DNA of 64,000 nucleotides, from positions 1,507,501-1,571,500 of the forward strand of contig JAGTXX020000006.1 of the NCBI GenBank assembly GCA_019044685.2, given 5' to 3'. The stretch is from Nannochloris sp. 'desiccata' (Eukaryota; Chlorophyta; Trebouxiophyceae; Chlorellales; Chlorellaceae). Below are positions 22,746-24,691 of the stretch, piece after piece. The position numbers and the translations under genes are program-made. Below the pieces are notes generated by a model. That model made no database searches. It had not been told where the DNA came from and worked only from the letters and a program-made list of their open reading frames with translations. Numbering within the stretch: position 1 is the stretch's first letter; the number at the start of each line of letters is the position of its first letter.

Positions 22746-24691
22746 TCAAGCCTGCATCTTGCTATTATTATCATTATCGACACCTGCACCAGTGTCTTTC
22801 ATCTCTTCCAACAACTGAGTCGCTCTCGTTAATTGTCTGCAGGCCTCCACCGCCACCGCCGTCACTTCTTCCTTCCCCAAAGTAGCAAAAGACTCTGCCT
22901 TTGTAATAATGTCAGGATGAGTGACTATGAAATCAAGAGCTACGGTTGATAAATGAGACAAACCTTGATTATGGGCCAATGAAAGCAACGTTGGTGCAGC
23001 TTCCGAAGCATTTTCAACCGCTCTCGGAGACCTATAGGCAGATTTCAAAACTTTAGCCAACATATGCTCGCACAATTGCGCACATCGAGGGACTCCAAAA
23101 TACTGTGCAACGTGGCAGGTTTCTACAGCTTCTTCGGCGGCACAATCCAACTCATCCCGGTACAAATAATTCAAAAAGGAAGATACCGCCTTCTCCGAAA
23201 AATGCTCGGGTACAGCAACACTGGAGACATCTGCGTCAGCCATTCCACTGTTGCAACGAGCGCGAAGGACGTCACACCGCCGGCATAATAGCGCTCTGTG
23301 TGCTGGGAGACGCCATTTTCCAGAACTGCTCTCTAAATAGCAATCATGGTCGCCCAACGCATCAAGAAGAGCAGCATGAAGGGTTTTCAAGCTCGAAGGA
23401 GAAGAGTTTGAAGAAGAGAGAAAGGAGCCTGAGGTTCCGGCACCTGCTGCCTGTCTTTGTAAAGCATACGGGCTTTGTGGTAAGCCATCCAAAACTCCAG
23501 CAGGCGAGGAAGAAAGCAGCCCAGTATGAGTATCGGAGCTGCTGCCCCTGCCTCCTTTCTTCCATCTTTGACTTTCTTCAACAATACCTGCCACGTCAGC
23601 ATCATAATTCGATGCAGCAACATTGTCACTCATCCTCATCTTTCTTTCCGCTTTCATTGCACATAGGACAATGTCCGCATCATTAGGCACCTCTAACTCT
23701 GAGAATCGCACCTGCGACAGGACCTTTTCCGATTTTCTGCCGTTGGCATGGACCGTCAATAATCGAAGATCCGAGGGATTTACAGGCACAACAATAGACC
23801 CTCCTTGTGGTTTTAACAAGTGTACTATTGGACGTAGATGCTCAGGTGGGCACGAGGCACCCACATGAACCCGATCGTACTGCCCCACGTGAGCAGTACC
23901 CTTCAAAAGAAAGGCATTTAAACATTCAAATTTGCACTCGGCAGCACAGGAAGCGAACTCAGGGGAGTTTTCTCTTAACTTTTCAACACTTTTCTTAGCC
24001 ATTTCACAGGTGTCTCTGCGAATATCGATACCGAGGACAGATCCGTTTTTCCCTGCTAGGACTGATAAAGCTGCAGTGACAATCCCACTTCCAGAGCCAA
24101 TATCTAAAATTCTAGCACCTGGAAAGACATCTAAGGCTTCTACCATGGTAGTTTGGACATGTGGAGCGCTGATGTTAAATTCCATATTCTCAATTCGTAA
24201 AGGTGCATCGATTAGCGCATCTTCTTTGTACTCCTCGGGCACAAATTGGTCTCGAGGTACAAGACGAAAAGCAGTTGCTACTGCATCGTTGGTAATAACA
24301 CCAGAACGCTGCATATTTCTGACCAGATCGTCGTTGGAAGCAGCAGGAGCATGGTCCACCATGAGGCCAGGGGCACCTCCAGCGATAAGACGGAGGAATT
24401 GGTGGAGGGGGAGTTGTTGACCTGGACGGCCGTGACGGGCCCCACCACCAGGATTATGGTGCGCGTGCATCTGCAGGTGATACATTTAAGAAAAGACAAA
24501 TAAGAAAATATGTATAGCAAGAATGTAACGCGAGGCTGCGAAAGTAGGGTAGTCACAGGGCTGCAAATTTATGGGGTTCATCTCGCTTGGTATTGCGATC
24601 TGAAGGTTTGTGAAGGACGGTCCAAGACAGATGCATACATTCTACGCACCTGTTGATCGTCTTCGGAATCAGAATCGGTGAAGGGGTCCAT
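22746..24691 (-). CDS. Protein-L-isoaspartate methyltransferase (PIMT-like) fused to a BTB domain
   Basis: Exon 1 is 24650-24691 (MDPFTDSDSEDDQQ) and exon 2 is 22746-24470, phase 0, giving 588 aa; a reading from 24485 without the intron is the less likely start. Residues about 45-290 form a PIMT-type AdoMet methyltransferase: VPRDQFVPEEYKEDAL, ISAPHVQTTMVEAL, ILDIGSGSGIVTAAL (AdoMet loop) and YDRVHVGASCPPEHL, all retaining PIMT core residues. A Ser-rich linker follows. Residues about 375-490 form a BTB/POZ domain (DCYLESSSGKWRLPAHRALL..., FLNYLYRDELD), followed by a helical BACK-like part. BTB proteins commonly serve as CUL3 ubiquitin-ligase adaptors. The fusion is in one exon, so it is not an annotation join. 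Confidence 0.85.

Follow-up and report, generated by a model that had tools for sequence, protein, structure and literature searches.

A 64,000-nucleotide stretch of DNA from the green alga Nannochloris sp. 'desiccata' (assembly GCA_019044685.2, contig JAGTXX020000006.1, positions 1,507,501 to 1,571,500; all of it hereafter termed "the window") carries on its minus strand a gene whose product joins a domain resembling protein isoaspartyl methyltransferases (PIMTs) to a BTB domain. The fusion is real, and its conservation among algae suggests a route for spotting and removing proteins that parallels the animal PCMTD family. With moderate confidence, we take the gene to encode a substrate receptor of a CUL3-based cullin-RING ubiquitin ligase (CRL3) that works like animal PCMTD1 and PCMTD2, with BTB and CUL3 replacing the SOCS box and CUL5.

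Domain architecture and folds

Both domains are located in a stop-free open reading frame (ORF) of 579 amino acids (22746-24485, minus strand), to which all residue numbers refer. The PIMT-like domain (Pfam PCMT, PF01135) occupies residues 50-261 (23703..24338, minus strand) and was scored at 122.6 bits against a cut-off of 20.3 (E = 2.6e-35). The BTB domain (PF00651), recognized by Pfam and by matches to BTB folds, spans residues 381-478 (23052..23345, minus strand), with 46.1 bits against a cut-off of 20.5 (E = 6.4e-12). Such a fusion, with the BTB domain placed in residues 375-490, had been proposed by a model that saw the nucleotide letters and their translations (the sequence-only reading), and the presence of both families in one open frame bears it out. 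A BACK-like helical region follows (residues 481-567; 22785..23045, minus strand). It was assigned from Pfam, the predicted local distance difference test (pLDDT) and an alignment to SPOP; the Pfam BACK score, 20.7 bits, is slightly below the cut-off of 20.9, and the helices were modelled at high pLDDT. No SOCS family was among the 17 Pfam matches, which were collected at E up to 10 with weak matches above ca. 0.1 mostly filtered out.

Both halves were modelled confidently by AlphaFold. The fold of the N-terminal half resembles those of PIMTs and of PCMTD1 from the solved CRL5 complex (a PDB entry titled as a PCMTD1-ELOBC-CUL5-RBX2 structure exists), and PCMTD was also the best PDB sequence match of this domain. 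For the C-terminal half, the best structural match was SPOP, with an alignment that reaches residue 559; BCL6-type BTB domains matched almost as well.

Conservation of the fusion

A protein search returned 25 records at E ≤ 0.001 among 7994 scored candidates, the window's own protein included. PF01135 and PF00651 occur together in 24 of the 25 (23 besides the window's own); the exception, P0021, is a gene model without pieces of both domains. The order of the domains is alike across the alignment of the 25 proteins. Six sources are named, and they are green algae: Micractinium conductrix, an Auxenochlorella hybrid, Apatococcus fuscideae, Symbiochloris irregularis, Pleodorina starrii and Volvox carteri. 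Taxonomy was looked up for four sources, of which three belong to Trebouxiophyceae and one to Chlorophyceae, all core chlorophytes; the join is common to two classes of this group. Conservation in several algae, which the sequence-only reading had named as its own test, was thus found. Given the Pfam E-values and the 23 further two-domain records, a chance fusion is excluded.

Among 22 members (231 pairs), the median pairwise identity was 0.53 for the PIMT-like domain, 0.46 for the BTB domain, 0.40 for the BACK-like region and 0.30 for the linker; by these values, both halves appear to have been kept together under constraint. When the 25-member alignment was used as a profile, the search retrieved the same 25 proteins from the 7996 best word-sharing candidates of 0.55-1.75 times the query length, a result that does not imply absence elsewhere. 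Two scans of viral contigs for the family gave no match. Among open-licence papers found for such a fusion or for algal isoaspartyl methyltransferase, none deals with a PIMT-BTB protein, as judged by titles and opening lines of abstracts. Database records already show the two domains together; the new element may be that the combination is recognized as a conserved class with PCMTD as its parallel.

Integrity of the PIMT core

The three motifs cited by the sequence-only reading were found at the expected places, all on the minus strand: ISAPH (24159..24173), the S-adenosylmethionine (AdoMet) motif I, LDIGSGSG (24084..24107), and HVGA (23856..23867). SAPH is present in 23 of the 24 proteins covering the site and is SAAH in the other. 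In motif I, Asp128 is kept in all 25 members, and Gly130, Gly132 and Gly134 in 24, with a gap in one; HVG and the post-I Asp154 are likewise found in 25/25. Other canonical positions have changed. The Thr that precedes SAPH in canonical PIMTs is Asn in all 24 members covering the site, and the Asp of GDG is Asn in 23/25. Among the 22 PIMT-BTB rows aligned for comparison with canonical enzymes, Leu replaces the Gln of QLK in 21, another residue stands in for the Gly of PVG in at least 20, and a C-terminal Gln position is missing from every one. The Asn of GDG was considered as a PCMTD-like mark and dropped, as one of the alga's own PCMTs (L010) also has Asn there.

Retention was counted over 43 canonical sites, defined as those that at least 80% of a set of 49 canonical PIMTs share (45 prokaryotic, 4 eukaryotic). 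The PIMT-BTB domains keep 22-28 of them (median 26, 22 rows), compared to 30-43 for prokaryotic PIMTs (median 41, n = 45), 32-37 for eukaryotic PCMTs (n = 4) and 18-20 for vertebrate PCMTDs (5 rows); these counts favor the canonical rows, which themselves defined the sites, while truncation costs the human and fly rows a few sites. The NCBIfam equivalog TIGR00080, a model made for bacterial and archaeal naming, gave 98.8 bits, below its cut-off of 159.05. On the sequence, only part of the PIMT core is intact; the earlier description of it as "intact-looking" fits AdoMet motif I and HVG and is too generous for the core overall. The pattern of kept and changed sites makes AdoMet binding by the domain likely and ordinary isoaspartyl repair by the protein doubtful.

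The BTB half and the cullins of the genome

In a family-profile search, the best match of the BTB half was again SPOP. Adaptors of CUL3 that use a BTB domain contact the cullin through a phi-x-E motif. At the place of this motif is M-A-D (23235..23243, minus strand), which was aligned with LKE of KLHL22 and LAE of BTBD6. Asp417 is present in 25/25 members, and position 415 is Met in 22 and Trp in 3; the family therefore has phi-x-Asp, not phi-x-E. The genome holds a CUL3-matching open frame (699.6 bits, versus 478.4 for CUL4A), a second cullin frame with CUL4 as its best match, and a further cullin in two near-identical copies that was left unclassed (best PDB matches: CUL3, 381 bits; CUL4A, 376; CUL1, 311). 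The CUL3 adaptor SPOP as the best family-level structural match and the presence of a CUL3 gene both favor the link to CUL3 that the sequence-only reading had supposed.

Relationship to PCMTD and PCMT

A tree of 76 rows was constructed; P0010, P0021 and P0025 were left out for incomplete or mis-modelled PIMT parts. The prokaryotic rows derive from 80 loci drawn from 91 relatives, of which 62 had a usable frame and 45 were kept after the removal of near-copies; this broader set replaced an earlier one that had been selected with a stricter motif filter (18 loci, 17 kept). All five PCMTD rows are from vertebrates, with none from invertebrates or protists; in the PCMTD1 search, the named proteins among the best 120 of 860 matches were vertebrate PCMTD1/2 by species name. 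The PIMT-BTB domains form one group (support 97/95) that is joined to PCMTD (99/94). These two, the eukaryotic PCMTs and L023 are separated from the remaining 44 prokaryotic rows (100/98.8). L023, a PIMT from a Microbacteriaceae-labelled contig, falls among the eukaryotic PCMTs; it may be a eukaryotic contaminant in a metagenome bin, and it was included in the 45 prokaryotic rows when sites were counted.

Common descent of the PIMT-BTB domain with PCMTD is suggested by this topology. Trees constrained to place PIMT-BTB with PCMT or PCMTD with PCMT were not rejected by the approximately unbiased test (p-AU 0.18 and 0.24, respectively). When either PIMT-BTB or PCMTD was left out, the other adjoined L010 of the alga (93/77 and 90/94). 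Because the PCMTD stem is long (2.3), long-branch attraction is possible. L010 (1486-2151), the second of the alga's canonical-type PCMTs, with Asn for the Asp of GDG, is the canonical row closest to both groups in the reduced trees.

The sequence-only reading had held that this alga coupled the two domains independently, while perhaps retaining catalysis. The core of that proposal is sound. Its two added claims are too strong: the join is shared by two algal classes and the tree places the PIMT-like domain with PCMTD (with the rival placements unrejected), and catalysis is doubtful given the site counts and the invariant Asn before SAPH.

Proposed function and alternatives

In the favored explanation, the N-terminal PIMT-like domain would bind AdoMet and recognize a client; a protein marked by damaged Asp/Asn, or by some other motif that bears a carboxylate, is plausible. 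The linker, being flexible, would let the C-terminal BTB-BACK module dimerize and dock on CUL3-RBX1, and the docked client would become ubiquitylated. The closest known systems are PCMTD1 and PCMTD2, in which a PIMT-like domain likewise precedes a cullin-ligase adaptor module. In one paper, PCMTD1 is described as AdoMet-binding and without apparent isoaspartyl methyltransferase activity, and PCMTD2 is reported as a CUL5 substrate receptor in mouse CD8 T cells (PMC10798966); a second paper states that one study had failed to detect such activity (PMC11514484). PIMT-BTB and PCMTD depart from the canonical enzymes at the same places, namely GDG, the Gln of QLK, the Gly of PVG and the C-terminal Gln position; at the Thr before SAPH both depart, but to His in PCMTD. 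The algal protein differs in having BTB-BACK and no SOCS box, and presumably in using CUL3 rather than Elongin BC-CUL5. It also keeps the motif I Asp and the Val of HVG, which are Asn and Cys in the five PCMTD rows, and it has SAPH and HVG where two of those rows have SAPC and YCG. From canonical PCMT1/PIMT it is distinguished by its reduced complement of canonical sites, the extra BTB-BACK half and the sub-cut-off TIGR00080 score. It is like SPOP and the BTB-BACK-Kelch adaptors of CUL3 in its BTB domain, helical BACK-like region and the place of the phi-x-E motif; unlike them, it carries a PIMT-like methyltransferase fold in place of MATH or Kelch, and Asp for Glu in the motif.

A rival explanation is an active protein methyltransferase whose BTB-BACK half would serve only for dimerization or scaffold placement, with no role in a ubiquitin ligase. 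BTB domains can serve as mere dimerizers, and the BCL6-type matches nearly equal SPOP. The motif I Asp, which like the post-I Asp and HVG is universal in the family and which is replaced by Asn in the five PCMTD rows, is taken by us to be D83 of the zebrafish enzymes (our own assignment, by position in chain 1i1n). The D83V form of those enzymes is described as catalytically inactive (PMC7859441). We nonetheless consider this explanation unlikely: 22-28 of the 43 canonical sites are kept, the Thr before SAPH and the Asp of GDG are replaced by Asn (the latter also in L010), and SPOP is the best BTB-half match of the family profile.

Less likely still is a dual-function triage factor of the repair-or-degrade type, which would methylate isoaspartyl clients for repair and ubiquitylate those that persist. 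A partly retained AdoMet site next to an adaptor domain fits this idea. The losses of canonical sites count against it as they do against the methyltransferase, and nothing places both activities on one client. In addition, the genome has two separate canonical-type PCMT genes, which probably cover the repair role that the sequence-only reading had given to the fusion; the fusion is thus probably not the main repair enzyme. That two neighboring genes were read as one, or that the assembly or gene model is in error, is very improbable and was rejected: both domains are within one uninterrupted exon, they recur in 24/25 records from differing sources and in the same order in the alignment, and the two halves diverge at similar rates among relatives.

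Under the receptor explanation, an alga has wired a domain similar to that of PCMTD1/2, whose clients and purpose in animals are little understood, to a different cullin. A small-genome green alga with ordinary-looking repair enzymes would be a simple system in which to ask whether such domains recognize isoaspartyl damage and direct it to degradation. Shared descent of PIMT-BTB and PCMTD would point to an old link between protein-aging chemistry and ubiquitin ligases; separate descent would be a striking convergence. As a tentative extension, toward which we lean less than toward the receptor itself, PCMTD-like receptors could form an ancient family of eukaryotes whose PIMT-like reader binds AdoMet and brings clients to cullin ligases, with green algae and animals having kept the reader and swapped the adaptor (BTB/CUL3 versus SOCS box/CUL5). 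Damaged-protein triage by such receptors would then be older than the plant-animal split.

Gene model and accompanying features

The gene model was built from the sequence alone. The main coding exon (22746..24470, minus strand), defined by the open frame and the splice model, contains both domains and the stop codon. It is probably preceded by a phase-0 intron of 179 nt (24471..24649, minus strand), with a GTGCGT donor and a CTGCAG acceptor after a T-rich stretch, and by a 42-nt first coding exon (24650..24691, minus strand) that would encode the acidic peptide MDPFTDSDSEDDQQ in frame. The spliced product is predicted to have 588 amino acids, and position 24691, the upper end of the interval originally delimited, is probably the ATG of the first exon. 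The "one exon" of the sequence-only reading therefore holds for both domains, whereas the gene as a whole probably has more than one. An acidic N-terminus of this kind is also seen in several relatives.

After the acidic stretch and ahead of the PIMT-like domain is a conserved motif, LPLHQFLRLIAGG (LPLHxFLRLIAG; 24375..24413, minus strand), which may be a docking motif. A motif of the FLRL type is present in 15/25 proteins; of the remaining 10, 8 start downstream of it in the alignment and 2 are divergent. In the linker, residues 313-362 have pLDDT below 50 in the AlphaFold model (disordered). A second conserved motif, SPAGVLDGLPQSP (SPxxVxDGLPxSP; 23469..23507, minus strand), was found in the linker of 14/25 proteins by pattern and could be a site of proline-directed phosphorylation or docking. 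An Rfam scan of the window gave no match.

At least eight BTB stretches are present in the genome, the PIMT-BTB gene among them. A gene for a small BTB protein (L003/L004; whole, 3336 bp) is found on two contigs at 99.97% identity, and the unclassed cullin (L019/L020; whole, 4830 bp) is similarly found on two contigs at 99.94% identity. These pairs probably reflect either a recent segmental duplication or an assembly that includes both haplotypes.
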